From: Prolixibacteraceae bacterium
GTDB taxonomy: Bacteria; Bacteroidota; Bacteroidia; Bacteroidales; Prolixibacteraceae
Length of the DNA: 34,686 nucleotides
NCBI GenBank assembly: GCA_018648265.1
Contig: JABGRN010000063.1
Coordinates: forward strand, 1 to 34,686
Direction: 5' to 3'
Of this stretch, positions 8,368-21,966 are shown piece after piece. Positions within the stretch are counted from its first letter, which is position 1. Each line of letters begins with the position of its first letter. A program made the position numbers and the translations under genes. The notes beneath the pieces were generated by a model. That model saw only the letters and a list, made by a program, of their open reading frames with translations, had not been told where the DNA came from and ran no database searches.

Positions 8368-9843
8368 ATGGGAATAATCATAAATCAAAGTATTAAGGGA
8401 AGTTTCTGGTCGTACGCAGGGATAGTTGTAGGATTTATAACTACATCATATTTATTTCCAAAATTTTTAACGCCTGAAACAGTGGGGTTGTTTGGGCTTC
8501 TGATTGCTTACTCAGTACTAATGTCGCAATTCTCGGCCTTAGGCTTCCATGGTGTAACATCACGTTTATTTCCTTATTTTAGAAATAAAGAAAATGCACA
8601 TAATGGTTATTTGTTTGTTGCAGCGGTTGTAATAATTACCGGTTTTATTTTGTTTGTTATGGTTTTCTTTTTTGTAAAACCACTACTTATTGAAAGCAAT
8701 ATTGAAAAATCTGCATTGTTTGTAGATTATATTTATTTGCTTTTGCCCCTCACTTTTTTCACTTTAATTTTTATTCAACTCGATGTTTTTAATAAAGTAT
8801 TGTACGATGCCGTTTTTGGAACCTTTTTGCAGGAATTTTTCCAACGTGTACTTATCCTTTTGATAACCATTTTATACGTTTTTAATATTTTCAACTTACA
8901 TCAATTAATTTTGGCCTATGCTGCTTCGGTTTGTTTTAAAGGGGCATTTTTATTTATTTATCTACTTTTTAAGAAGAAAATAAGTTTTAAACCTCAGCTT
9001 GCTTTTATTGACAAAAAACTTCGAAATGAAATGATCAGTGTAGCACTATTTAGTATATTAACAGGTTTAGGGAATAGCATTGTTTTTAATATTGATAAAA
9101 TAATAATTAATCAAATACTGGGTTTAAGCCAAACTGGTGTATATACAATCGCTTTCTTTTTTGGTACCCTTGTAATAATTCCTTCGCGAGCTCTATTAAG
9201 GATTTCCGGGACACTAATCGCAGACGCTTTTAAACGAAAAGACTTAAAGTATATCGCTGACATTTATCACCGAAGTTGTTTAAACCAGTTTATTATTGGA
9301 GCATTTATTTTTGGTGGTATTTGGATTAACATCGATAATATTTTAGAGGTTTTGGGGCCGGATTACGAAGAAGGTAAATGGGTTATAATAATAATAGGGC
9401 TGGCTTATCTTTTTGATATGCTCACAGGTGCCAATTCACTGGTTATTGCATTTTCGCCATTTTACAAGGTTGCTTTAATTTTTATTTTGATACTAATTGT
9501 TTTGGTTGTGGGAACAATGTACCTGCTTGTTCCCGAATTTGGCGTTGTTGGAGGGGCCGTAGCAATCGGTATTTCCATAATTGCTAATAATATTATGCGT
9601 TATACATTTCTAAAAATAAAATATGGGATGCAACCTTTTAATGCAAAGTTTTTATTCGTTTTATTTATTTTTGCAGGTGGCATAGGTCTTTCGTATTTTC
9701 TACCCAAATTAAACCTTATTGTCGATATTTTAATTCGGAGTACTATCTTTGCAATAATTTTTATTTCTGGCATTTATGTTACTAAAGCATCGGAAGATTT
9801 CAACTTACTTGTTAAAAAGCTAAAAGAAAATTACTTGTTTTAA
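8368..9843 (+). CDS. Wzx-type polysaccharide/lipid-linked oligosaccharide flippase
   Basis: This 491-residue protein has about 12-14 hydrophobic helices spread over its full length and short basic loops. It matches the polysaccharide biosynthesis protein branch of the MOP (MATE/Wzx) superfamily. The N-terminus (GSFWSYAGIVVGFITTSYLF) and the helix NIDKIIINQILGLSQTGVY are characteristic. The family moves lipid-linked oligosaccharide units across the inner membrane. It is the first plus-strand gene of the locus, 58 bases before the neuB-like gene, which fits export of a unit containing the sugars made by the following genes. Substrate specificity cannot be read from sequence. Confidence 0.88.
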   Translation: MGIIINQSIKGSFWSYAGIVVGFITTSYLFPKFLTPETVGLFGLLIAYSVLMSQFSALGFHGVTSRLFPYFRNKENAHNGYLFVAAVVIITGFILFVMVFFFVKPLLIESNIEKSALFVDYIYLLLPLTFFTLIFIQLDVFNKVLYDAVFGTFLQEFFQRVLILLITILYVFNIFNLHQLILAYAASVCFKGAFLFIYLLFKKKISFKPQLAFIDKKLRNEMISVALFSILTGLGNSIVFNIDKIIINQILGLSQTGVYTIAFFFGTLVIIPSRALLRISGTLIADAFKRKDLKYIADIYHRSCLNQFIIGAFIFGGIWINIDNILEVLGPDYEEGKWVIIIIGLAYLFDMLTGANSLVIAFSPFYKVALIFILILIVLVVGTMYLLVPEFGVVGGAVAIGISIIANNIMRYTFLKIKYGMQPFNAKFLFVLFIFAGGIGLSYFLPKLNLIVDILIRSTIFAIIFISGIYVTKASEDFNLLVKKLKENYLF

Positions 9844-9901: not shown

Positions 9902-10960
9902 ATGGGGGCTTTTTCATTTTCAAAAAAAATAAAAGTTGGCGATAAATCAATTGGCGAAAGTCATCCTGTTTTTATTATTGCCGAAGCGGGGGTAAATCAC
10001 AACGGAAATTTACAAAAGGCAAAAAAATTAATCGATGCGGCGGTCGAATCAGGTGCCGATGCGGTTAAATTCCAGGCTTTTAAAACTGAGAATCTAATTT
10101 TAAACAATGTTGGTAAAGCACCATATCAAAAAGAGAAAACCGGTAATGAAGAATCTCAGTTTGAAATGCTTAAAAAATTAGAAATTACCAAAGAACAAAA
10201 CCAGGTGCTCATTGAATATGCCCGTCAAAAAAATATTGTTTTTCTATCTACTCCTTTTGACGAAGAAAGCCTTGACGAATTAGTTGATTTGGGAGTTGAT
10301 GCAATTAAAATTTCTTCGACCGATGTTACGAATCTGCCCTTTTTAAAAAAGGTGGCAAAAAAGGGAAAGCCTATTTTTTTATCAACAGGAATGTGTTATT
10401 TGTCGGAAGTAGAGAAAGCACTAATTGAGATTGAAGCTTTCAATAACGAGGTCATACTTTTACAATGCACGGCCAATTATCCGGCAAAAAACGACGAAGC
10501 AAACCTGGCAGTTTTAAATACCTATAAACAACATTTCGATATAATTTTAGGGTATTCCGACCACACTGAAGGCATTGGGGCTTCACCATTTTCAATACCT
10601 TTGGGGGCACAAGTTGTTGAAAAACATTTTACACTCGACCGTAACGATTTGGGGCCAGACCACGACGCATCCCTTAATCCTGAACAATTAATTGAATATG
10701 TAAAAACCATAAGGAAAGTTGAAAGTTATATGGGAACCGGGATAAAATTTCCTTCATTCGATGAAACATTAACAAGAAAATCGCTGCAAAAATGCCTCGT
10801 TGCCAATATCGACATAAAAAAAGGCGACATTTTTTCCGAAGATATGTTAGTGGCAAAAAGAACTGGAGGTAAAGGAATTTCACCTGTGTATTACAAAAAT
10901 ATTACGGGGGAAATTGCGCCAAAAGATTTTCAAAAAAATGATATAATTGAAATTAAATGA
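9902..10960 (+). CDS. NeuB-family nonulosonic acid synthase
   Basis: This 352-residue enzyme should condense phosphoenolpyruvate with a 6-carbon sugar of manno configuration to give a nine-carbon ulosonic acid. The NeuB TIM barrel spans about 20-270, with E28 in the IIAEAGVNHNG motif, K56 in AVKFQ, K136 in AIKIS, and H221 and H242 in GYSDHT and VEKHFTLDR. A C-terminal antifreeze-like SAF domain (about 292-352) supplies the usual second half of the active site. Both halves look intact. By motif it could be a sialic, legionaminic, pseudaminic or KDN-type synthase; sequence alone does not decide. Its stop overlaps the start of the acetyltransferase gene (ATGA), so the two are translationally coupled. 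No intact 2-epimerase (neuC/legG) or pseG gene lies in the window. Confidence 0.9.
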   Translation: MGAFSFSKKIKVGDKSIGESHPVFIIAEAGVNHNGNLQKAKKLIDAAVESGADAVKFQAFKTENLILNNVGKAPYQKEKTGNEESQFEMLKKLEITKEQNQVLIEYARQKNIVFLSTPFDEESLDELVDLGVDAIKISSTDVTNLPFLKKVAKKGKPIFLSTGMCYLSEVEKALIEIEAFNNEVILLQCTANYPAKNDEANLAVLNTYKQHFDIILGYSDHTEGIGASPFSIPLGAQVVEKHFTLDRNDLGPDHDASLNPEQLIEYVKTIRKVESYMGTGIKFPSFDETLTRKSLQKCLVANIDIKKGDIFSEDMLVAKRTGGKGISPVYYKNITGEIAPKDFQKNDIIEIK

Positions 10961-11571
10961 AACCCAAAATTGTAATATTCGGTGCAGGTGGCCATACACG
11001 CACTTTAATTCCCCTCGTTCGTTCTGAAGGTTATGATATTTTAGCTATTTATGACGATTCTTTTAAAAATGGGGTTGATGAAAAAATTGATGGGATTTCA
11101 GTAATTGGAAAAATTGACGATTTTAAAAAAGAAGCAAAAATTATCCTATCTTATGGTGAAGGTGAAAAAAGGAACATGTTAATCAATAAATTCCCTGATT
11201 ATATTTTAAACGATAATTTGATACACCCTTCTGCAATTATTGAAAATAGTGCTAAAATAGAAGGGCTTAACCAAATTTTTGCACTTGTTGTAATCAATGC
11301 CCAGACAATTATCGGAAAAAACAATATTATTAATACCGGGGCAATTATTGAACACGAAGTTAAAATCGGGGGTAATAACCATATTTCGGTTGGGAGCGTT
11401 TTAGCCGGCAGGGTTGAAATTGGTGATTACTGTTTTATTGGGGCCGGGGCAGTAATAATCGATAAAGTAAAAATTACCGATAAAGTAATTATAGGTGCCA
11501 ATGCCGTTGTAATTAAAAATATTAATGAACCGGGAACATACGTGGGTAATCCCGCAAGAAAAATAAAATGA
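10957..11571 (+). CDS. NeuD/PglD/PerB-family sugar N-acetyltransferase
   Basis: This is a 204-residue left-handed beta-helix acyltransferase with an N-terminal Rossmann-like nucleotide-sugar domain (GAGGH at 9-13) and hexapeptide repeats from about 95 to 190. It carries the PglD/PerB catalytic pair: H133 with E134 in AIIEHEV, and H142 in NHISVGSVLAG. Family members acetylate the C4 amino group of nucleotide-linked 4-amino-4,6-dideoxy sugars (PglD, PerB) or O-acetylate sialic acid (NeuD). With perosamine synthase and Gmd genes in the same block, GDP-perosamine N-acetylation is my preferred role. It overlaps the preceding and the following genes by four bases each. Confidence 0.85.
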   Translation: MKPKIVIFGAGGHTRTLIPLVRSEGYDILAIYDDSFKNGVDEKIDGISVIGKIDDFKKEAKIILSYGEGEKRNMLINKFPDYILNDNLIHPSAIIENSAKIEGLNQIFALVVINAQTIIGKNNIINTGAIIEHEVKIGGNNHISVGSVLAGRVEIGDYCFIGAGAVIIDKVKITDKVIIGANAVVIKNINEPGTYVGNPARKIK

Positions 11572-12416
11572 TTTACGTATCATCTGCTTGTTCAAAAAAA
11601 ACAAATATCAGAGCAAGTGTATTAGAACTTGTTTCCGCCGGAATTCAAAATATTGAATTATCAGGTGGTACAGAATACAGCGAGACACTTGAAAATGATT
11701 TAATAGAACTGCAATTAAAACATAATTTAAATTTTTTACTACATAATTATTTTCCTCCGCCCCAAAAACATTTTGTACTAAACCTCGCTTCAGAAAATCA
11801 AGGAATCCGGGAAAAAAGTTTAAAGCATATTAAAAATGCCATTAATTTATCTGAAAAATTAAAAGCTTTTAAATATGGGGTTCATGCCGGATTTTTTATC
11901 GATCCAAATGTTAATGAGCTTGGAAAAAATATTGACATAAAAAAAATATCAGGGACAGAAACCGGAACAAGCAATTTTGTTGATTCTTTTTTGATGCTGA
12001 ATAATAGTAAAACAGATGTAAAACTTTATATTGAAAACAATGTCATTTCAAAAAATAATTATACAAATTTTGCCGGAAATCCATTTATGTTGACCAATTC
12101 TGAATCGTTCAATCAATTGCAAAAAAAAATCAATTTTAATCTCCTGCTTGATGTTGCTCATTTGAAGGTGTCGTGTAATAGTTTAAATTTGCGTTTTGAA
12201 AAAGAATTACAATACTTATTATCAAAAACTGATTATATTCATTTGAGCGATAATTGTGGACAAGTTGATTCAAACAATGCAATAACAAAGGATTCCGAAA
12301 TGTTCAGAAGCCTGAAAAAAAACAATCTCAAAAATAAAACAATATGCCTGGAAATTTATTCCGGCTTAAACGAAGTTTTAAAAACCATCGAATTATTAAA
12401 ACCATTGGTAGTATAG
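11568..12416 (+). CDS. Endo IV/xylose isomerase-like TIM-barrel protein
   Basis: This 282-residue protein resembles the AP_endonuc_2 TIM-barrel superfamily (sugar isomerases, epimerases and endonuclease IV). Candidate metal ligands are visible in order: H59, H106 (GVHAG), E156 (YIENN), D195 and H198 (LDVAH, spaced as in Endo IV DTCH), H225 with D228 (IHLSDN), D234, and E262 (CLEIYSG). The region 71-95 also reads like the Endo IV family. Single-metal sugar epimerases normally need only a subset of these, so a two- or three-metal phosphoester or isomerase chemistry is conceivable. It is coupled by ATGA overlap to the acetyltransferase gene and ends five bases before the perosamine synthase gene. 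Its exact reaction is unknown. Confidence 0.78.
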   Translation: MIYVSSACSKKTNIRASVLELVSAGIQNIELSGGTEYSETLENDLIELQLKHNLNFLLHNYFPPPQKHFVLNLASENQGIREKSLKHIKNAINLSEKLKAFKYGVHAGFFIDPNVNELGKNIDIKKISGTETGTSNFVDSFLMLNNSKTDVKLYIENNVISKNNYTNFAGNPFMLTNSESFNQLQKKINFNLLLDVAHLKVSCNSLNLRFEKELQYLLSKTDYIHLSDNCGQVDSNNAITKDSEMFRSLKKNNLKNKTICLEIYSGLNEVLKTIELLKPLVV

Positions 12417-12421
12417 CAACT

Positions 12422-13498
12422 ATGAGATATCCAGTTTACAAACCCGAGATTACAAAAAATGAAAAGATATATGTAAACGAATGTCTCGATTCAACCTGGA
12501 TTTCTTCACGGGGTAAGTTTATTGAAAAATTTGAAAGTGCAGTTGCTTCATTTGTTGATGTTGAAAATGCTATTGCTGTTTGCAATGGAACTGTTGCTCT
12601 CCATCTGGCAATTGAAGCCTATGGAATTGGGGCAGGTGATGAAGTTATTATCCCCGATTTTACATACATTGCTACTGCCAATGCAGTTAAATATACTGGG
12701 GCGCAAGTTGTTTTAGCTGATGTAAACCTGAACAGCTGGAATATTACAGTAGAAAATATTGACCGTTGTTTAACCCCAAAAACAAAAGCCGTAATTGTTA
12801 CCGATATTTATGGGACACCTCCTGAAATGGACGAAATCCGGGAATATTGTTCAATTAAAAATTTAATTCTTATTGAAGATGCAGCTGAATCATTAGGGGC
12901 GGTTTATAAAACCCAAAAAGCTGGTAATTTAGCCGATGTGGCAACCCTTAGTTTTTTTGGGAATAAAACAATAACCACTGGAGAAGGTGGTATGGTGCTT
13001 ACCAATAACAACGAAATTGCCCAAAAAATCAGGAAGCTCATGAATCAGGGGAATTCTGAAAAAGTCCGTTATTATCACGACATTCTTGGTTATAATTATA
13101 GAATGACTAATATCCAGGCTGCAATCGGCTATGCCCAAATGCAGCGAATTGGCAGTATTATTAATCGTAAAAGAAAAATCTTTGAAATTTACAAAAATGA
13201 ACTTGATGGTTTGGTTCAATTTCAAGAAATACAGGAACATACAAAATCGTCTTATTGGATGGTAAGTTTTTTACTTAGAGATAAGTTTTCACGAAATAAA
13301 TTAATGACAAAATTAGAAGAGAATGGAATTGAAACCAGGCCATTTTTTTATCCTGTTAATAAAATGCCTTTTTACGAGAATTGTGGTAATCTAGATACCG
13401 AAAAGCTTTCTGATACTGGCATTAATGTGCCAAGCTATCCTACTTTAAAAGAAGAAGATATTAAATGGATTTGTTCAATTATTAAGAATAATTTATAA
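12422..13498 (+). CDS. GDP-perosamine synthase-like PLP aminotransferase
   Basis: This is a DegT/DnrJ/EryC1-family aminotransferase of 358 residues. It should transfer an amino group from glutamate to GDP-4-keto-6-deoxy-D-mannose, making GDP-perosamine. The N-terminus (PVYKPEI, then NECLDSTWISSRGKFI) and the PLP-lysine segment (SFFGNKTITTGEGGM, K182) are characteristic of the Per/RfbE group, and the C-terminal RPFFYPVNKMPFYE also fits. D153 in EDAAES is the probable PLP-ring aspartate. The start is taken at ATG 12422, because an upstream in-frame ATG at 12344 lies inside the previous gene and adds 26 residues with no homology pattern. Gmd, its expected partner, is the next gene. Confidence 0.88.
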   Translation: MRYPVYKPEITKNEKIYVNECLDSTWISSRGKFIEKFESAVASFVDVENAIAVCNGTVALHLAIEAYGIGAGDEVIIPDFTYIATANAVKYTGAQVVLADVNLNSWNITVENIDRCLTPKTKAVIVTDIYGTPPEMDEIREYCSIKNLILIEDAAESLGAVYKTQKAGNLADVATLSFFGNKTITTGEGGMVLTNNNEIAQKIRKLMNQGNSEKVRYYHDILGYNYRMTNIQAAIGYAQMQRIGSIINRKRKIFEIYKNELDGLVQFQEIQEHTKSSYWMVSFLLRDKFSRNKLMTKLEENGIETRPFFYPVNKMPFYENCGNLDTEKLSDTGINVPSYPTLKEEDIKWICSIIKNNL

Positions 13499-13514
13499 AC
13501 CACTGTAAATAATT

Positions 13515-14549
13515 ATGAAAAAAGCACTTATAACGGGAGTTACAGGGCAGGATGGTTCTTATCTGGCTGAATTTTTATTAGACAAAGGTTATGAAGTACA
13601 TGGTTTAGTTCGAAGATCAAGTTTGGAGCAAAAACTTAGAATAGAACATCTTTATCATGATCCGCATTATAATGGTAAATTCAAAGTACATTATGGGGAT
13701 ATGACAGATTCTTCAAATATAATTAGGATATTAGATACTGTCAGGCCAAATGAAATTTATAATCTTGCAGCTCAAAGCCATGTACGCGTAAGTTTCGAGA
13801 TACCAGAATATACGGCTAATGCAGATGCTATTGGACCATTAAGGATTTTAGAAGCGATTCGCATTTTAGGGTTACAAAATCATTCCCGGTTTTATCAGGC
13901 TTCAACAAGCGAGCTTTACGGAAAAGTTCATGAAATCCCTCAAAAAGAAACAACCCCGTTCTATCCAAGAAGTCCGTACGGGGTTGCAAAACTATACGCA
14001 TATTGGTTAACGCGGAATTATCGCGAAGCTTATAATATTTATGCTTCGAATGGAATATTGTTTAATCATGAATCTCCCCGACGAGGAAATAGTTTTGTAA
14101 CCAAAAAAATTGCCATCGCTGCCGCTCAAATTGCAGCGGGGCAACGGGAAAAACTATTTTTAGGGAATTTAAATGCCTGTAGGGACTGGGGTTATGCCCC
14201 CGATTATGTTCGTTCTATGTGGATGATGCTTCAACACAACGAACCCGATGATTTTGTTGTGGCGACCGGTGAAACCCGATCTGTGCGTGAATTTGTAGAA
14301 AAATCTTTTTTAATGGCAGGCGTTCAAATACAATGGGAAGGAGAGGCAGAAAACGAAAAAGGCATTGACAAAAAAAACGGCAAAATAATAATTGAAGTAG
14401 ATCCTTGGTATTACAGACCAACGGAAGTAGATCTTTTAGTTGGCGATTACACTAAAGCAAAAGAGAAGCTTGGATGGGAACCACAATACACTTTTGACGA
14501 TCTAATTCAAATAATGATGGAATTTGAACTTAATAACATAAAAAAATAA
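13515..14549 (+). CDS. gmd: GDP-mannose 4,6-dehydratase
   Basis: This 344-residue extended short-chain dehydrogenase converts GDP-D-mannose to GDP-4-keto-6-deoxy-D-mannose. The Rossmann NADP-binding motif is GVTGQDGSY at 8-16. The catalytic set is T131 and E133 (ASTSELYG) with Y155 and K159 (SPYGVAKLY). Gmd-specific blocks are present: RRSS after the cofactor motif, FNHESPRRG near 183-191, and [13 protein letters not shown] near the C-terminus. Length is close to the family norm. It lies 16 bases after the aminotransferase gene and 3 bases before the cytidylyltransferase gene. No GDP-fucose synthase follows, so the product most likely goes to perosamine rather than fucose. Confidence 0.95.
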
Positions 14550-14552
14550 ATA

Positions 14553-15266
14553 TTGAATAACGGTAAAAATATAGTAGCCCTTATACCTGCCCGCGGGGGT
14601 AGCAAGGGGATAAAAGGCAAAAATATAAAATTGCTAAATGGAAAGCCGTTAATTGCCTTTAGCATTGAAGCTGCATTAAAATGCAAAGTAATTAATCGTA
14701 TTATTGTTTCAACCGACAATGCAGAAATTGCATCCATCGCAATAAAATATGGGGCAGAAGTCCCTTTTATGAGGCCTCCGGAAATTTCAACCGACCAAAC
14801 CCCGGATCAACCGGTAATGCAACATTGTATTAATTGGCTTAATGTAAACGAAAATTTTCAGCCTGAATATTTGGCCTACCTTAGACCCACTACTCCGTTT
14901 AAAACTGCCATTTTGATAGAAAACTGTTTTATTAAGATTTCTAACTCAAAAACTGCAACATCGCTACGCACAGTTACAAAATCAGAGGGGGTTTTTCATC
15001 CTTACTGGATGTATAAAACTGAAAAGGATGAGTTAAAACCTTTTATTGATGGAATCAATATTAAAGAATATTATCGCCGACAAATGTTACCCGAGTGTTA
15101 TCGGTTAAATGGTGTTATTGACATATTGCGGCCTGAAATATTTATGAATCAGAATGATATTTACGGAAAAAATATAATTTATAACGAACTGAATGAAAAA
15201 CAATCAGTAGATATTGATAATGAATTTGATTTCGCTTTTGCTGAATTTCTAATGAAAAATAAATAA
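14553..15266 (+). CDS. NeuA-family acylneuraminate (CMP-nonulosonate) cytidylyltransferase
   Basis: This 237-residue enzyme should activate a nonulosonic acid with CTP to the CMP-sugar. The CTP-binding motif IPARGGSKGI lies at 11-20 (R14, K18 conserved), followed by LLNGKPLIAFSI. RPTTPFK at 111-117 corresponds to the usual QPTSPLR, and SVDIDNEFDF near 218-227 holds the metal-binding D220 and D222. The family includes NeuA, LegF, PseF and KDN-type enzymes; specificity is not readable. The only start upstream of the CTP motif is TTG at 14553, three bases after the gmd stop, consistent with low-level coupled translation. It ends the compact block; a gap of 334 bases follows. Confidence 0.9.
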   Translation: MNNGKNIVALIPARGGSKGIKGKNIKLLNGKPLIAFSIEAALKCKVINRIIVSTDNAEIASIAIKYGAEVPFMRPPEISTDQTPDQPVMQHCINWLNVNENFQPEYLAYLRPTTPFKTAILIENCFIKISNSKTATSLRTVTKSEGVFHPYWMYKTEKDELKPFIDGINIKEYYRRQMLPECYRLNGVIDILRPEIFMNQNDIYGKNIIYNELNEKQSVDIDNEFDFAFAEFLMKNK

Positions 15267-15600
15267 GCGCTCCAGAATCCTAAAAATAAATTTAAACAAT
15301 TTACAGAATAAAAAATAGGCTGGTAATAAAATGCCCAATAATTTAGACTGGTATAATTATTAAAAATGATTGTGGTGTGTAATTTACTTAGGCAATTTAT
15401 CCCGAAATAAGCGGAAGGGCCAGTTTGATACCAAATGGTCTGAGGTAATTCGTGAATTACAATTAAACATACACATAGCATCTGCTATTTAAGGAAAATT
15501 CAACGAAGAATAAATGAAAAAGACGCATAATTAAATGAAAGGATAATTTTTAAACAGTCTCTTAATATTTTACTTATTATTGATATTATTAGATATAAGC
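15267..15600. other. 334-base gap with a perfect palindrome, no convincing gene
   Basis: No open frame here looks genuine. The plus-strand frame around 15381-15495 gives about 40 residues with no ATG start and no recognised family. A perfect 16-base palindrome, GTAATTCGTGAATTAC (7-base arms, 2-base loop), lies at 15445-15460. It has no T-run behind it, so it is not an obvious terminator. The region may be the residue of a lost insertion or gene, and it must also supply the promoter for the following transferase gene. Confidence 0.5.
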
Positions 15601-16986
15601 ATGAATTCAATCAAAATCACAGATAATATTTCATTAAAAAAACTTGCGGAATTTTTCTGGAAGTTGGAAAAGGAATTCGATTTAATCCATTATGAAATAA
15701 ACGATGTTAAAGTTTGGCAATATCAAAGATTTAGAATCTTTCTCACCATCGCCAGGCAACTTGGAGTGTTTAATCATGTCCATACTAAAAAAACCAAGTT
15801 TTTAGAAATTCTTAGTGCTGCACCTTCATTATTATATAATTCAATCTTTTCTAATCCGATATTGGGAAATTATAATAAAGAAACATTAGTGTTTAGTTCA
15901 GGAAGAAAAATAAAAGTTAATGAATGGTTTATCGATATTTACACAGAATATTTTATTGACAAACTTAAAAACGGTTCATTTGAAATAATTGAAGAATTAT
16001 ATTTAAACCGGCATCTTCCATCGGAAACAAAAAACAGGAAACACCAGGACTACCAGCAAATCAGCACGTTCCTAAAGAGCAAACTAAGTATTTTTAAGCT
16101 AAACAAAAAACAACTTCTCTTTATCTCTGAAATAGAAAAATTTATTAAAACAAAATTAGGGGCAGAAATAAATCTCAAAACCCTTTTTCGAAATGGATAC
16201 CTTACTTTTAAAAATGATTTTGAATTTTATAACAAGCTGATTAGAAAGAGAAAGCCAACAAAAATATTTCTGATTTGTTCTTACGGTTATAAAATGGCCT
16301 TAGTTGCTGCTGCCAAACAAAACCAAGTGGAAACTATCGAAATCCAACATGGCACGGTAAATAAATATCACCTTGGATATAGTTATCCAAATCATTCTTA
16401 CATCGATTATTTCCCCGATAAAATCTACTTTTGGAGTGAATATTGGAAAAATTGCATGCATTTTCCACTGGCAGAAGAAAATAAATTTGTGTCTGGTTTT
16501 CCATATTTCCGAAATCAAAAAGAGCGATTTCAAGGAGTTTCCAAAATCCCAAAACAGGTGCTAATAATATCTCAAGGCACCATCGGTAATCAATTAAGCG
16601 AATTTATTTGGAAAAGCAGAGATGTGCTTAAAAATTATAAGGTAATTTATAAATTGCACCCCGGAGAATTTGATAGATGGGTTAATGAATACCCGTGTTT
16701 AAACAAACTAAATGAACTGGATAATATCTCCATTATCGATAATAATAACTCAAACTTATATTCCTATTTGGCCAAATCAGAGTTTGTGGTGGGTGTATAT
16801 TCAACGGCTGTTTACGAAGCCCTTTCATTTAATTGTAAAGTTATTTTGGCCGATCTTCCGGGAGTGGAATTTTTAGAAGATTTAGCTAAATTAAATTATA
16901 TAAAAAAAGTGTTTAATACTAATGATTTACAAAATAGCCTGATTTCTGATACATTTAATAAACTTGCCCCTGATTATTTTTTTTAA
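15601..16986 (+). CDS. GT-B capsule-type glycosyltransferase, candidate nonulosonate transferase
   Basis: This is a 461-residue soluble protein with no signal or membrane helix. The C-terminal half looks like a GT-B nucleotide-binding domain of the capsule/sialyl/Kdo-transferase type: EIQHG (H250), SQGTIG near 324-329, KLHPGE (H353, P354), and VYSTAVYEAL (S401, T402). An HP motif followed by an S-S/T motif is shared by several bacterial sialyltransferase families (GT38, GT52, GT80) that bind the CMP phosphate. I infer a CMP-nonulosonate transferase from these motifs and from its position after the cytidylyltransferase; another capsule polymer transferase is the main alternative. ATG 15601 is chosen over an in-frame TTG seven codons upstream. 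Confidence 0.7.
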   Translation: MNSIKITDNISLKKLAEFFWKLEKEFDLIHYEINDVKVWQYQRFRIFLTIARQLGVFNHVHTKKTKFLEILSAAPSLLYNSIFSNPILGNYNKETLVFSSGRKIKVNEWFIDIYTEYFIDKLKNGSFEIIEELYLNRHLPSETKNRKHQDYQQISTFLKSKLSIFKLNKKQLLFISEIEKFIKTKLGAEINLKTLFRNGYLTFKNDFEFYNKLIRKRKPTKIFLICSYGYKMALVAAAKQNQVETIEIQHGTVNKYHLGYSYPNHSYIDYFPDKIYFWSEYWKNCMHFPLAEENKFVSGFPYFRNQKERFQGVSKIPKQVLIISQGTIGNQLSEFIWKSRDVLKNYKVIYKLHPGEFDRWVNEYPCLNKLNELDNISIIDNNNSNLYSYLAKSEFVVGVYSTAVYEALSFNCKVILADLPGVEFLEDLAKLNYIKKVFNTNDLQNSLISDTFNKLAPDYFF

Positions 16987-17473: not shown

Positions 17474-18595
17474 ATGCAAACCATCCACATGTCTGATTTA
17501 TATGGCCAATATTTAACCATGAAAGAGGAAATTGATGCAGCCATTCAGGATGTAATAAAATCTACTCGATTTATTAAAAGTGGCAAGGTCCTCGATTTTG
17601 AAGAAAAACTTTCGACCTATTTAAATACAAATGTAATTGCATGCGCCAATGGAACCGATGCTTTGCAAATCGCTTTAATGGCCCTTGATCTTCAGCCCGG
17701 TGACGAGGTAATTACAACACCATTTACTTTTATTGCAACAGTTGAGGTACTCGTTTTATTAGGATTAAAACCCGTTTTTGTTGACACGGAACCAGATACG
17801 TTTAATTTAGATGTATCGAAAATTGAACAAGCAATTTCTGAAAAAACAAAAGTAATTCTTCCTGTCCACCTTTTTGGGCAATGTGCAGATTTAGAATCAA
17901 TAATTTCATTGACAAGAAAAAGAAATATTACAATCATTGAAGATGCTTGCCAGGCATTAGGAACTGATTATGTTTTTACTGACGGAACAAAAAAGAAAGC
18001 TGGCACCATTGGTAAAATAGGGTGCAATTCATTTTTCCCTTCAAAAAACCTGGGTGCATTTGGCGATGGCGGAGCAATTTATACAAGCAACGAAAAACTG
18101 GCTAAAAAAATTCGTTCTATTGCAAATCACGGTATGAAACAAAAATACCAGTACGAACAAATCGGTGTAAATTCCAGATTAGATAGTTTACAGGCTGCAA
18201 TTCTGGAAGTAAAATTAAAATACTTCGAAAAACATATTAAGGCACGGCAAAATGCGGCAGCATTTTACGATGAACATTTGGCAAATATTGAAGAAATTCA
18301 AATCCCTAAAAGAGTAAAATACAGCACACACACATTTCATCAATATACCATTAAAACAGAAAAAAGGGATGAGCTTCAGCAATTCCTGAAAACAAAAGAA
18401 ATTCCGTCGATGGTGTATTATCCCGGCGTTATTCATTTACAGGAAGCATATAAATTCTTAGGATATAAAAAGGGGGATTTCCCGGTAAGCGAATTACTTG
18501 CAGAAACAGTTCTATCTTTGCCAATGCACACTGAATTAACCGAAGAACAGTTGAAATATATTGTTATGGTGGTTAAGGAATTTTATTCAAATTAA
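17474..18595 (+). CDS. wbpE: UDP-2-acetamido-2-deoxy-3-oxo-glucuronate aminotransferase (WbpE/WlbC)
   Basis: This 373-residue DegT/DnrJ-family PLP enzyme should aminate the 3-keto group of UDP-3-keto-GlcNAcA. The N-terminal DLYGQYLTMKEEIDAAI, the CANGTDALQIALMAL block, PFTFIATVEV and PVHLFGQCADLE follow the WbpE/WlbC pattern. The PLP lysine is K191 in FFPSKNLGAFGDGG, and D157 in EDACQ contacts the cofactor ring. Length is normal. The other three enzymes of the same pathway follow on the same strand, after the interrupting GxxExxY gene. It has its own candidate promoter. Confidence 0.92.
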   Translation: MQTIHMSDLYGQYLTMKEEIDAAIQDVIKSTRFIKSGKVLDFEEKLSTYLNTNVIACANGTDALQIALMALDLQPGDEVITTPFTFIATVEVLVLLGLKPVFVDTEPDTFNLDVSKIEQAISEKTKVILPVHLFGQCADLESIISLTRKRNITIIEDACQALGTDYVFTDGTKKKAGTIGKIGCNSFFPSKNLGAFGDGGAIYTSNEKLAKKIRSIANHGMKQKYQYEQIGVNSRLDSLQAAILEVKLKYFEKHIKARQNAAAFYDEHLANIEEIQIPKRVKYSTHTFHQYTIKTEKRDELQQFLKTKEIPSMVYYPGVIHLQEAYKFLGYKKGDFPVSELLAETVLSLPMHTELTEEQLKYIVMVVKEFYSN

Positions 18596-18609
18596 AAAGG
18601 AAAATTCCC

Positions 18610-18634
18610 AGCAAAGGCGCAGAGACGCTAAAGG
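18610..18634 (+). repeat. left inverted repeat of the GxxExxY insertion
   Basis: AGCAAAGGCGCAGAGACGC and the following TAAAGG form the left arm. In the 21-base core (18611-18631) it matches 18 positions of the reverse complement of the right arm at 19075-19095. The GC-rich GCGCAxAGACGC core stands out from the AT-rich surroundings. Confidence 0.6.
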
Positions 18635-18679
18635 AAAATGAAAATTGAAAATGGTGATAACATTTGAAGCGAAAATAAC

Positions 18680-19057
18680 ATGAATGAAAATGAAATTGCA
18701 AAAATTATTGTCAATACATGTTATAATATTCATGTTGAACTTGGTCCCGGATTACTTGAATCGGTTTATGAAGAGATTTTGTTCCATGAGTTATCTACCT
18801 TGGGATTGAGAATTGACCGACAAAAAACAATACCTTTAACATGGAAGGGTATAAAAATGGAAGTCGGTTTTAGGGCTGACTTAATTGTTGAAAATAAGGT
18901 AATTATAGAATTAAAGTCAGTTGAAAATATTGCCCCTGTTCATCCCAAACAACTTCTAACTTACTTAAAAATAACCAGGCTAAAACTGGGTTTGTTGATT
19001 AATTTTAATGAAAAATTAATTAAGGATGGAATAACGAGAATAGTGAATAATTTATAA
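18680..19057 (+). CDS. GxxExxY family protein
   Basis: This 125-residue protein carries the family-defining motif in GPGLLESVYEEIL (G-x-x-E-x-x-Y). Two acidic/lysine stretches, GFRADLIVENKVIIELKSV and then HPKQLLTYLKI, look like the core of a PD-(D/E)xK nuclease fold (D...ExK, then Q near the next helix). A nuclease-like activity is therefore possible but unproven. The protein is full length for the family. It has nothing obvious to do with sugar metabolism and lies inside the wbp operon, flanked by inverted repeats, so I read it as a recent arrival. Confidence 0.88.
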   Translation: MNENEIAKIIVNTCYNIHVELGPGLLESVYEEILFHELSTLGLRIDRQKTIPLTWKGIKMEVGFRADLIVENKVIIELKSVENIAPVHPKQLLTYLKITRLKLGLLINFNEKLIKDGITRIVNNL

Positions 19058-19071
19058 CTATGTAATATAAC

Positions 19072-19096
19072 TGCTTTGCGTCTTTGCGCCTTAGCG
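19072..19096 (-). repeat. right inverted repeat of the GxxExxY insertion
   Basis: TGCTTTGCGTCTTTGCGCC followed by TTAGCG is the imperfect reverse complement of the left arm at 18610-18634. It ends 13 bases before the start codon of the acetyltransferase gene, so it lies in that gene's leader. Confidence 0.6.
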
Positions 19097-19109
19097 AGAA
19101 GTTTTTAAA

Positions 19110-19685
19110 ATGAATAAAAAATATTACAACCACGAAACAGCCATTATTGACGAAGGTGCTCAAATTGGAGAGGGTTCAAAAGTATGGCATTTTTGCCATG
19201 TTATGGGAACAGCCCAAATTGGACAGAATTGTATTTTTGGACAGAATGTTTTTGTAGGGAACAATGTAAAAATCGGAAATAATGTAAAAGTGCAAAATAA
19301 TGTTTCGTTGTATGAAGGCGTAATTTGCGAAGACGATATTTTTCTTGGACCGTCAATGGTTTTTACAAATGTTATAAACCCTAGAAGCGCTGTTAACAGA
19401 AAAGAAGAATTCAAAAAAACACTGGTTAAAAAAGGAACTTCTATTGGTGCAAATGCTACCATTGTTTGTGGAGTTACTTTAGGCGAATATAGTTTTATTG
19501 GAGCTGGTGCAGTTGTTACAAAAAATGTAAACCCTTTTGCATTAATGGTTGGTGTTCCTGCAAAACAAAAAGGCTGGGTAAGCAGGGCAGGTGCCATTTT
19601 ACACGATGATTTAGTTTGTCCCGAAACTAAAGAAAAGTATAAATTAACAAGAGGTTTTTTAGAACTAATCAAAAATGAACATTAA
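19110..19685 (+). CDS. wbpD: UDP-2-acetamido-3-amino-2,3-dideoxy-glucuronate N-acetyltransferase (WbpD/WlbB)
   Basis: This 191-residue left-handed beta-helix enzyme should acetylate the 3-amino group of UDP-GlcNAc3NA, using acetyl-CoA. It is built almost entirely of hexapeptide repeats from residue 10 to 150. The blocks [54 protein letters not shown] and [19 protein letters not shown] are diagnostic of the WbpD/WlbB group. Its last codons overlap the start of the dehydrogenase gene by 11 bases, indicating translational coupling. Confidence 0.93.
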
Positions 19686-20985
19686 AAAAGAGATACTTTA
19701 TAAAGTCAATAATAAACAACTTCTAATTGGAGTTGTAGGCTTGGGTTATGTTGGATTACCACTCTCAGTAAGTTTCGCTCAAGAGAATAATCAGGTTTTA
19801 GGTTTTGATAAATCTGAAGAAAAGATTAAAAAAATAAATTCGGGCGAAAATTATATAGGAGATATTCAAGATGATGATTTAATATCTGTTGTAAACAAGG
19901 GTTTACTTTCTGCTTCAAATGATTTTTCACTGATAAAAAAGTGTGATGTCCTGTTAATTTGTGTTCCAACTCCCTTGGATAAATTTCGCAAACCTGACAT
20001 GAGTTACATTGAATCGGCTTGTATTGAGATTGGAAAGAATATGAAAAGAGGTACTTTTATTTGTTTAGAAAGTACAACCTACCCAACAACAACAGAACAT
20101 TTTATGTTGCCAATTATCGAGCGTGAATCTGGATTTAAACATGAAAATGATTTTTGGCTGGCTTTTTCCCCCGAACGGGTTGACCCCGGAAATAAAGAAT
20201 ATTTTACTAAAAATACACCAAAGGTCTTAGGTGCTTTAACAAAAGATGGATTAGAAATAGGGGAAGCTATTTATAAACTGGCCATTGAGAATGTTCATTT
20301 AGTTAGTTCTCCCAGGGTAGCAGAAATGGTTAAAATCCTGGAAAATACTTACCGCTTGGTAAATATCAGTTTAATTAATGAACTGGCATTACTTTCCGGT
20401 AAAATGGACATCAATATCTGGGAGGTAATAGAAGCAGCAAAAACAAAACCATTTGGTTTTCAGGCATTTTATCCCGGCCCTGGAGTTGGCGGACACTGTA
20501 TTCCTTTAGATCCATTTTATTTAGAGCATATTGCCAAAAAGTTTAATTTCGATTTAACAATGATAAATACTGCAGGTCATATTGATATGTTAATGGCTCA
20601 TCGGATGACATTAAAAATTACCTCTGCTTTAAACCGACATAAAAAGTCCATTAACGGAAGTATAATTTTATTTTTAGGCGTCGCTTACAAACCCAACATT
20701 AATGATGAACGTGAATCTCCTGCTTTAAAAATTATAGATGAAGTAATCAATAAAGGAGGAAATGTTCGATATCACGATCCGTATATTTCTGAAATAAAAA
20801 CCCCGGAAAATAAACAGCTGAAAAGTATTAAACTATCACCGGATTCTTTAAAAATTTTTGATTGTGTTGTAATTACAACAAATCACTCTGAATTCGATGC
20901 AAGTTTTATTGAAAGAAATTCAAAAATGATTGTTGATTTACGAAATCTAATAAAAGTAGCATCTAATAAAGTCTATAAACTTTAG
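19675..20985 (+). CDS. wbpA: UDP-N-acetyl-D-glucosamine 6-dehydrogenase (WbpA type)
   Basis: This 436-residue nucleotide-sugar dehydrogenase oxidises C6 of UDP-GlcNAc with NAD+ to UDP-GlcNAcA, the first step of the pathway. The NAD-binding GVVGLGYVG motif is at 19-27. The substrate and catalytic set includes E132 (LESTTYP), K220 and N224 ([12 protein letters not shown]), and the catalytic Cys at 275 in [14 protein letters not shown]. The C-terminal UDP-binding domain is complete, with [14 protein letters not shown]. By sequence it could also be a UDP-ManNAc or UDP-GalNAc dehydrogenase, but the partner genes favour WbpA. Confidence 0.92.
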
Positions 20986-21030
20986 ACTTAAAATCCAGGT
21001 TAGAAAATACACAAAATTCAATACTAAATT

Positions 21031-21966
21031 ATGAAACGATTTGCATTAATAGGTGCGGCAGGTTACATTGCCGACCGCCACATGAAAGCGATAAAAGAAA
21101 CAGGAAATCAACTGGTGTGTGCATCAGACCGATTTGATGTAATGGGCAGAATCGATCGATATTCCCCCGAAACAGAGTTTTTCCTGGAACATGAAAACCT
21201 CGATAAATACATGGACGACTTACGTATGAGAGGCGCCCCAATTGATTACGTAAGTATTTGTACACCAAATTATATGCACCCATCGCATATTCGATTTGCT
21301 TTACGAAATGGTGCTGATGCCATTTGCGAAAAACCATTGGTTATTTTCCCTGAAGACATACACATTATTAAAGACATTGAAACTGAAACCGGAAAAAAGG
21401 TTTACACTGTTTTGCAACTACGTTACCACCCTACAATTTTAAAACTAAAAAAAGAAATTGAAGAGGCTGGCAATAAAATACACGATATTGATTTAAGTTA
21501 TATTACAACACGTGGGAAATGGTATTTTAAAAGCTGGAAGGGGGATATTCAAAAATCGGGCGGCGTCGCAACTAACATTGGGATTCATTTTTTCGACATG
21601 CTTACCTGGATTTTTGGAAATGTAAAAGAAAATATTGTTCATGTGTATGATCACAATAAAGCTGCCGGTTATTTGCAATTAGAAAAAGCCCGTGTACGTT
21701 GGTTTTTGAGCCTCGATTCAAACGATCTCCCCAAAGCCGCCACCGATAAGGGAATGCGAACATTTCGCTCGATTACAGTTGATAACAAAGAAGTTGAATT
21801 TAGTGGCGGATTTACCGATTTGCACACTATTACCTACCAAAATATTTTAAACGGAAATGGCTTCGGTATCGACGATGCCCGGGAAAGTATCGAATTAACA
21901 AACTTTGTTCGAAACTCAAAGCCGGTTGGATTAAGGGGCGAGTATCATCCTTTTCTTGTAAAATAG
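21031..21966 (+). CDS. wbpB: UDP-N-acetyl-2-amino-2-deoxyglucuronate 3-dehydrogenase (WbpB/WlbA)
   Basis: This is a 311-residue Gfo/Idh/MocA-family oxidoreductase. It should oxidise C3 of UDP-GlcNAcA to the 3-keto intermediate that WbpE aminates. The N-terminal Rossmann motif reads ALIGAAGYIADRHMKAIKETGN, the family lysine lies in CEKP (E100, K101, P102), and LQLRYHP plus GGVATNIGIHFFDML match the substrate domain of this group. It is the last plus-strand gene of the locus and ends ten bases before the stop of a converging glycosyltransferase gene. Confidence 0.93.
   Translation: MKRFALIGAAGYIADRHMKAIKETGNQLVCASDRFDVMGRIDRYSPETEFFLEHENLDKYMDDLRMRGAPIDYVSICTPNYMHPSHIRFALRNGADAICEKPLVIFPEDIHIIKDIETETGKKVYTVLQLRYHPTILKLKKEIEEAGNKIHDIDLSYITTRGKWYFKSWKGDIQKSGGVATNIGIHFFDMLTWIFGNVKENIVHVYDHNKAAGYLQLEKARVRWFLSLDSNDLPKAATDKGMRTFRSITVDNKEVEFSGGFTDLHTITYQNILNGNGFGIDDARESIELTNFVRNSKPVGLRGEYHPFLVK

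Follow-up and report, generated by a model that had tools for sequence, protein, structure and literature searches.

A six-gene cluster in a Prolixibacteraceae genome suggests a GDP-mannose-based route to a legionaminic acid-like nonulosonic acid

The pathways for nonulosonic acids (NulO) branch from UDP-GlcNAc, Kdn excepted, according to PMC8053191; PMC7439481 describes GDP-linked precursors for the legionaminic acid (Leg) of Campylobacter jejuni. Three known pathways come closest to the locus described here, a six-gene cluster at positions 9902-15266 of a 34,686-nucleotide stretch of Prolixibacteraceae DNA (the window), which is an entire contig (JABGRN010000063.1) of a 5.58-Mb, 100% complete genome. 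The CMP-legionaminic pathway (LegB, LegC, LegH, LegG, LegI, LegF) has the same order of steps, from 4,6-dehydration through CMP activation, and several diagnostic synthase columns in common with our cluster. Here, however, the start would be GDP-mannose via a true Gmd, a triosephosphate isomerase (TIM) barrel protein would take the place of the hydrolysing 2-epimerase, the C2-site motif of the synthase is changed, and C5 is predicted to carry a hydroxyl. The GDP-N-acetylperosamine pathway (Gmd, Per, PerB) is matched in its first three enzymes, by family and by best structural matches, but the predicted end point here is a free sugar for NeuB rather than a glycosyl donor. Finally, the KDN pathway, based on mannose or Man-6-P, likewise draws a C5 hydroxyl from a mannose-type precursor, but KDN has neither the 7-acetamido group nor the 9-deoxy position, and its pathway involves no nucleotide-sugar remodelling.

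As can be seen from the window coordinates, all on the + strand, the cluster is compact. It opens with a neuB-like nonulosonate synthase gene (9902-10960; PF03102, SAF domain PF08666, TIGR03569), joined by 4-base overlaps to a gene for a NeuD/PerB/PglD-type hexapeptide N-acetyltransferase (10957-11571; TIGR03570, PglD_N), a predicted GDP-perosamine 4-N-acetyltransferase, and then to that of the TIM barrel (11568-12416; PF01261, AP_endonuc_2), a member of the xylose isomerase/Endo IV superfamily and predicted GDP-sugar hydrolase. A GDP-perosamine synthase-like DegT aminotransferase (PF01041) follows. Its listed open reading frame (ORF; 12344-13498) starts inside the TIM-barrel gene, but the likely start is an internal ATG at 12422, favoured because the Pfam match begins right after it, which gives a gene at 12422-13498 and a 5-base gap. 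Then come gmd, encoding GDP-mannose 4,6-dehydratase (13515-14549; TIGR01472), after 16 bases, and, after 3 more, a neuA-like CMP-nonulosonate cytidylyltransferase gene with a TTG start (14553-15266; CTP_transf_3, PF02348). ORFs and family matches thus agree with the sequence-only reading of this DNA, which had described six close-packed genes with overlaps followed by gaps of 3-16 bases. The arrangement is not a chance one, since many genomes carry the same gene set.

The six genes very probably form a single pathway. Our best explanation of the whole, which we consider probable, is a linear route from GDP-mannose to a CMP-nonulosonic acid in which the TIM barrel serves as hydrolase; every reaction in it, above all the TIM-barrel step, is a prediction. 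Gmd would convert GDP-mannose into GDP-4-keto-6-deoxy-D-mannose, from which the Per-like aminotransferase would make GDP-perosamine, and the hexapeptide enzyme would acetylate the 4-amine to give GDP-4-acetamido-4,6-dideoxy-D-mannose (GDP-Per4NAc). The TIM barrel, a putative metal enzyme with Endo IV-like ligands, would free 4-acetamido-4,6-dideoxy-D-mannose (Per4NAc), which NeuB, with phosphoenolpyruvate, would turn into 7-acetamido-3,7,9-trideoxy-D-glycero-D-galacto-nonulosonic acid, and NeuA would yield the CMP sugar of that acid. No 2-epimerase would be needed, because GDP-mannose is already manno-configured. The predicted acid differs from legionaminic acid as KDN does from Neu5Ac, by a hydroxyl in place of the N-acyl group at C5, and we think it rather likely that the exact product is this 5-OH analogue. 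A single path had been favoured from the sequence alone; it now gains support from the linkage of TIM, NeuB, aminotransferase and, usually, acyltransferase genes, from Gmd in 38 of 40 host genomes and from a synthase mostly changed in its C2 motif but Leg-type at other columns, the product being predicted. The TIM barrel had been given no role, and we propose it as the sugar-releasing step.

The enzymes on either side of that step match known families. The dehydratase, the single Gmd over cut-off in the genome, scores 572.4 bits on TIGR01472 (cut-off 415) and 112.6 on the LegB model (cut-off 475; this gene only, with no genome-wide LegB search), and two ManC-like nucleotidyltransferases elsewhere, above cut-off for PF22640 (ManC beta-helix) and below it for TIGR01479, suggest that GDP-mannose is supplied. 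The aminotransferase (DegT, PF01041, 384.7 bits) finds its best Protein Data Bank (PDB) matches in the perosamine synthetases 3bn1 and 3dr7, at 303 bits, with the next match at 257. It stays below cut-off on the PseC model (269 versus 423.5 bits) and on that of LegC (370.0 versus 420, again with no genome-wide LegC search), on which a NeuC-linked aminotransferase reaches 518; its curated-model matches include no perosamine-synthase model. A ColD-type dehydrase identity was rejected on finding the pyridoxal phosphate-lysine motif FGNK, which we take to mark an aminotransferase. The hexapeptide enzyme passes the NeuD/PglB/VioB model TIGR03570 (182.3 bits, cut-off 160.8), its best PDB matches, PglD-type (92.6 bits) and PerB (91.1 bits), being tied. 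The neuA-like protein (PF02348, 82.0 bits) is closest in the PDB to NeuA and CMP-NeuAc synthetases and falls below the PseF cut-off (158.5 versus 205.7 bits).

As for the TIM barrel, it scores 33.9 bits on AP_endonuc_2 (cut-off 31.1), and its predicted model (predicted local distance difference test, pLDDT, 96.9) has MJ1311 (3wqo) as best solved fold in Foldseek, followed by UlaE and Endo IV; Endo IV is not among the 50 VIA-align matches listed for the model, which excludes nothing. It thus shares the fold of the Endonuclease IV/MJ1311/D-tagatose 3-epimerase superfamily, and a partial, profile-based alignment to Endo IV covers its FVLNLAS...HAGF stretch. Unlike Endo IV, it lies far below the deoxyribonuclease IV equivalog cut-off (21.6 versus 244 bits), and nearly all of its sampled relatives are located in sugar clusters. 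H59, H106, E156, D195, H225, D234 and E262 are kept in 74/74 aligned relatives, H198 and N236 in 73/74. Of the nine metal-ligand positions of Endo IV, eight carry conserved residues in the TIM barrel, as a match of sequence only. In one relative (L004, 8279-9574, - strand) a GNAT acetyltransferase is fused to the TIM barrel in a single protein, which links the acylation and TIM steps. We lean, by a little, toward a hydrolase that frees the sugar from GDP-Per4NAc.

The sequence-only reading had named a failure of the six genes to co-occur in other genomes as evidence against it; instead, near-relatives of the set were found in 83 loci from about 13 phyla. A six-member TIM alignment, run against 84,980 named genomes, gave 167 relatives, from which the best 80 were taken, more distant members being unsampled; 83 distinct loci were fetched around the TIM gene, L016 and L010 having been removed because they duplicate L009 and L033. 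The phyla in the trees include Pseudomonadota (with SAR11), Cyanobacteriota (Prochlorococcus), Thermodesulfobacteriota, Planctomycetota and Bacillota, and many carriers are metagenome-assembled genomes (MAGs) or single cells; Alteromonas confluentis and Picosynechococcus sp. PCC 7117 are examples in culture. TIM relatives are rare, with 3/395 Bacteroidota genomes and 3/295 of the order (the window's genome counted in each), and 6/197 of a SAR11 family (G711 counted); the TIM barrel found nothing in IMG/VR or among phages, and one record among plasmids. The four relatives that join the window's own in the Bacteroidota and order counts all have partners of the same kind. The six-gene order of L009 is identical to that of the window, and L010, ended by a contig edge, reads TIM, gmd, per, neuA. 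A separate GNAT (L005) or the fused one (L004) can take the place of the hexapeptide enzyme.

Full 5-kb flanks are available for 53 TIM loci, of which 51 show an aminotransferase, 49 NeuB, 42 NeuA, 31 a hexapeptide transferase and 18 a true Gmd (77, 74, 59, 48 and 23, respectively, in all 83). By comparison, 40 NeuC-anchored loci with flanks of about 5 kb hold NeuB in 40, NeuA in 31, an aminotransferase in 19, a hexapeptide enzyme in 12, a true Gmd in one and a TIM barrel in none; these are 40 of 54 places and come from Bacteroidota only, unlike the TIM set with its many phyla. A NeuC-like ORF lies within 5 kb of the TIM gene in just 1/83 loci (L052), and it is a distant relative (73 bits, 24% identity). 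One Deferribacterales contig (L014, 6250-19842) carries both a TIM-type and a NeuC-type cluster, the true NeuC being 7.8 kb off, in the second. Judged by gene content, the TIM barrel marks NulO clusters of a separate type from the classical NeuC/LegG ones. The acyl step, too, appears to be kept via non-homologous enzymes, with a hexapeptide enzyme in 47 of the 83 loci, a GNAT in 13 (the fused one of L004 entered by hand), a formyltransferase in five and none recognised in 18. The most frequent further families around the TIM gene are SDR (23 loci), methyltransferase (21) and MocA (16).

The aminotransferases of these loci separate as well: in their tree, 16/17 NeuC-linked enzymes fall in one long-branch clade without TIM-linked members. 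An N-terminal CBS domain (Pfam) is present in 56/58 long TIM-linked forms. A linked Gmd is missing from 48/58 loci with CBS aminotransferases and present in 13/14 loci with short forms, from which we infer that the CBS domain may regulate a branch point at which the Gmd product is shared. Of the host genomes surveyed, 22 of 24 whose fetched locus has no Gmd encode one over cut-off elsewhere. In all, Gmd is over cut-off in 38/40 chosen TIM host genomes versus 87/148 Bacteroidota, and because so many Bacteroidota have it, Gmd co-occurrence carries less weight for us than linkage, the absence of NeuC and the motif of the synthase. NeuC is over cut-off in 4/41 TIM genomes versus 53/296, a depletion that is not significant (Fisher P 0.27). 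With E<=0.001 as the limit, the NeuC model finds a match in as many as 26/41, in 22 of these solely below cut-off, and these lesser matches are probably WecB-type. For these counts 40 of 80 loci were chosen by hand, the NeuC count adding the window's genome; short contigs were passed over, as were most single cells of SAR11 and Prochlorococcus, which biases the choice to fuller genomes. In two Helicobacter genomes, H. cinaedi (L055) and H. labetoulli (L056), the TIM gene is accompanied by a CBS-aminotransferase and by a gene of a methyltransferase family, and each genome has three NeuC homologues elsewhere.

In the window's genome itself, the NeuB of the cluster is the sole NeuB found, the NeuC/LegG/WecB family PF02350 has 0 matches at E<=0.001 across the genome, and the NeuC model TIGR03568 has none. 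The earlier remark that the window holds no intact neuC or legG therefore extends to the genome: no intact copy elsewhere, which had been named as a finding that would speak against a single path, turned up in either search.

The synthase carries a further signature. Its scores, 402.8 bits on TIGR03569 (cut-off 399.65) and 257 on the PseI model (cut-off 340), group it on the NeuB/Leg side, away from the PseI side. In a tree of 126 NeuBs, 64/72 TIM-linked enzymes and six paralogues form a group (support 92) without any NeuC-linked member; of the other TIM-linked ones, six sit amid NeuC-linked Leg-type enzymes and two on long branches (we assign "Leg-type" and "Neu-type" by position in the tree and by gene content). 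Where 34/40 NeuC-linked NeuBs have SGE, the window's NeuB reads KISSTD. In window numbering, position 140 is G in 34/34 NeuC-linked and 8/62 TIM-linked NeuBs, and position 141 is E in 33/34 and 0/62, respectively. SGE is likewise absent from all 21 NeuBs with a linked Gmd. The counts by position leave out TIM-linked L065, L074, L078, L080 and L086 (long branches or badly truncated) and six of the 40 NeuC-linked NeuBs (L146, L147, L149, L151, L152, L155), and show the six TIM-linked outliers separately; second NeuB matches under 100 bits in NeuC loci L157 and L159 were discarded. A motif scan of all TIM-linked NeuBs also gave odd forms such as KIGSFE and KLASLN.

Columns 138, 140 and 141 of this K-I-x-S-x-x motif are among those separating the TIM group (62) from NeuC-linked Leg-type enzymes (21), the former having mostly T or A at 140 and D or Q at 141, the latter G and E. 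Conversely, F57, Q76, H254 and A256 (the last in 49/62) are common to TIM-linked and Leg-type NeuBs, unlike Neu-type ones. PMC7371886 indicates that the Gly of this motif (Phe in PseI) may govern C2 specificity and that residues 70-85 act at C4-C6. We placed the Gly/Phe site on the window's NeuB through an alignment with the PseI motif KIASFE, and by our own mapping only Q76 of the four shared residues falls within the 70-85 stretch. The pattern suggests a substrate that is legionaminic-precursor-like towards C6 and different at C2, which fits Per4NAc. Arg314 of Neisseria meningitidis NeuB, reported in PMC6795526 to position the N-acetyl group, was dropped as a discriminating residue, its equivalent (window R320) being conserved in all NeuB groups.

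Several observations weigh against this route. The solved folds closest to the TIM barrel are epimerase- or isomerase-like, and its Endo IV ligand match is one of sequence positions only. NeuB passes, by 3 bits, an NCBIfam equivalog for N-acetylneuraminate synthase; G140 is retained, as SGQ, in the 8/62 main-group enzymes noted above, and the outliers that group with NeuC-linked Leg-type enzymes (L047, L052, L058, L061, L063, L079) all keep E141, four of them as KIPSGE. The window's short-form group of five aminotransferases adjoins the LegC clade (midpoint root). The fetched locus is without Gmd in 24/40 surveyed TIM genomes, and those of L042 and L053 (a MAG and a single-cell genome) have none over cut-off anywhere; the 18/83 loci with no recognised acyltransferase nearby count here too. 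Four GlcNAc 2-epimerase (AGE)-family proteins in the window's genome make a supply of free ManNAc conceivable, and kinship among the sequences makes Fisher values optimistic.

There are three rival explanations. In the first, the pathway is still a single one, but the TIM barrel would epimerise or isomerise the sugar, either once freed or while nucleotide-linked; an unlinked hydrolase (e.g., a Nudix enzyme) would release it, and the product would be another stereoisomer. We consider this unlikely, as GDP-Per4NAc already has the manno configuration used by NeuB enzymes, which leaves nothing to epimerise; the terminal His residues of strands 3 and 4, presumably an Endo IV-like rather than epimerase-like trait, are invariant in 74/74; and the commonest further neighbours (SDR, methyltransferase, MocA) are not hydrolases, the rarer families being only partly identified. 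Less likely again is the making of two independent sugars: GDP-N-acetylperosamine would serve as a donor, and ManNAc or mannose would give a conventional NulO such as Neu5Ac or Kdn. Both halves are known pathways, glycosyltransferases lie close by, the AGE-family proteins could provide ManNAc, and the 3-bit margin over the N-acetylneuraminate synthase cut-off points the same way. The gene order is interleaved and overlapping, however, the set recurs across phyla almost never mixed with NeuC clusters, and the synthase has neither the Neu-type residues at 57, 76 and 254 nor the SGE that is also missing wherever Gmd is linked. Quite improbable, in our view, is a product that is legionaminic acid itself or closely related to it as a 5-N-acyl sugar, for which Gmd and the aminotransferase would take GDP-GlcNAc-type sugars and the TIM barrel would stand in for LegG. 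In its favour, C. jejuni Leg is made from GDP-linked sugars (PMC7439481), several synthase columns are Leg-type and some TIM loci retain Leg-type synthases. This reading would, however, require a C2 epimerisation, the dehydratase favours Gmd over LegB by 572 to 113 bits, the aminotransferase stays outside the LegC clade and under a cut-off that a NeuC-linked one clears at 518, and the SGE motif is mostly gone.

The GDP-mannose route that we favour may reach well beyond this genome. We are evenly divided on the broadest version, a further major NulO pathway rooted in GDP-mannose that would make 5-hydroxy-7-N-acyl (acetyl or formyl) 9-deoxy acids in some 13 phyla, with SAR11 and Prochlorococcus among the carriers, and would have a TIM hydrolase replacing NeuC/LegG/PseG and a CBS-aminotransferase where Gmd is shared. 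If true, it would bring a new class of sialic-acid-like surface sugar via GDP-mannose, a new hydrolase family, a NeuB specificity rule and, in the TIM barrel, a gene marker for the pathway. The open-licence PMC literature, which comprises no preprints and few subscription papers, so that silence is weak evidence of absence, yielded in its accessible parts no description of a GDP-mannose-derived amino NulO; pathway and sugar appear to be undescribed. The predicted acid (C11H19NO8, 293.1111) has a computed 1,2-diamino-4,5-methylenedioxybenzene (DMB) adduct at [M+H]+ 410.156. Fusaminic acid and other 9-deoxy-Neu5Ac-type acids have the same elemental composition, so mass surveys could have recorded the predicted acid under another name.

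Some TIM loci carry variations on the gene set. An N-formyl version of the sugar is suggested by L024, L025, L044, L081 and L086, where a formyltransferase-cluster gene (by family models in L081 only) takes the acetyltransferase's place, no more than 5 kb from the TIM gene. L006, L070, L089 and L090 have HisF/HisH-like pairs near the TIM cluster, and L006 also has a gene annotated as an N-acetyl sugar amidotransferase, which suggests acetamidino modification. A second, divergent NeuB stands upstream of the TIM-type genes in Bacteroidota-type L022, L025, L041, L044 and L049, several with another NeuA; that of L025 is below the NeuB and PseI cut-offs alike. Six loci share a gene of a DHDPS/NanA-like family, assigned by a Pfam run on L025 alone.

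The surroundings of the cluster are those of a polysaccharide locus, with glycosyltransferases nearby and a Wzx-like flippase gene (8368-9843, +; PF01943, 33.8 versus 28.2 bits) just upstream. Downstream, the protein encoded at 15580-16986 (+) has no family match; homologues (blastp E<=1e-3, some weak) occur in 13 TIM loci, five adjoining a core gene, and in none of the 40 NeuC loci, whose flanks are shorter. Its GT-B-type model (pLDDT 74.3) matches UDP-GlcNAc 2-epimerases first, which makes a hidden NeuC a possibility, the more so as a 612-residue L009 protein, from the protein cluster that includes its L011 and L012 homologues, reaches 29.4 bits on PF02350, under the 30.6 cut-off; that same protein, however, matches Glyphos_transf better, at 40.0 bits. 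Polysialyltransferase 5wc6 and the CDP-ribitol enzyme TarL rank lower as fold matches but at higher identity (16-17%), and because of this and of an invariant QH and HP we prefer to see in it a CDP/CMP-sugar transferase, a candidate for handling the CMP-activated product. Farther on, 17474-21966 holds a second sugar set of DegT aminotransferase, hexapeptide transferase, UDP-sugar dehydrogenase and Gfo/Idh oxidoreductase, which we take to resemble the UDP-2,3-diacetamido-glucuronic acid pathway (WbpA/B/D/E), and a PDDEXK_3 nuclease-family ORF (18680-19057) lies among the polysaccharide genes.

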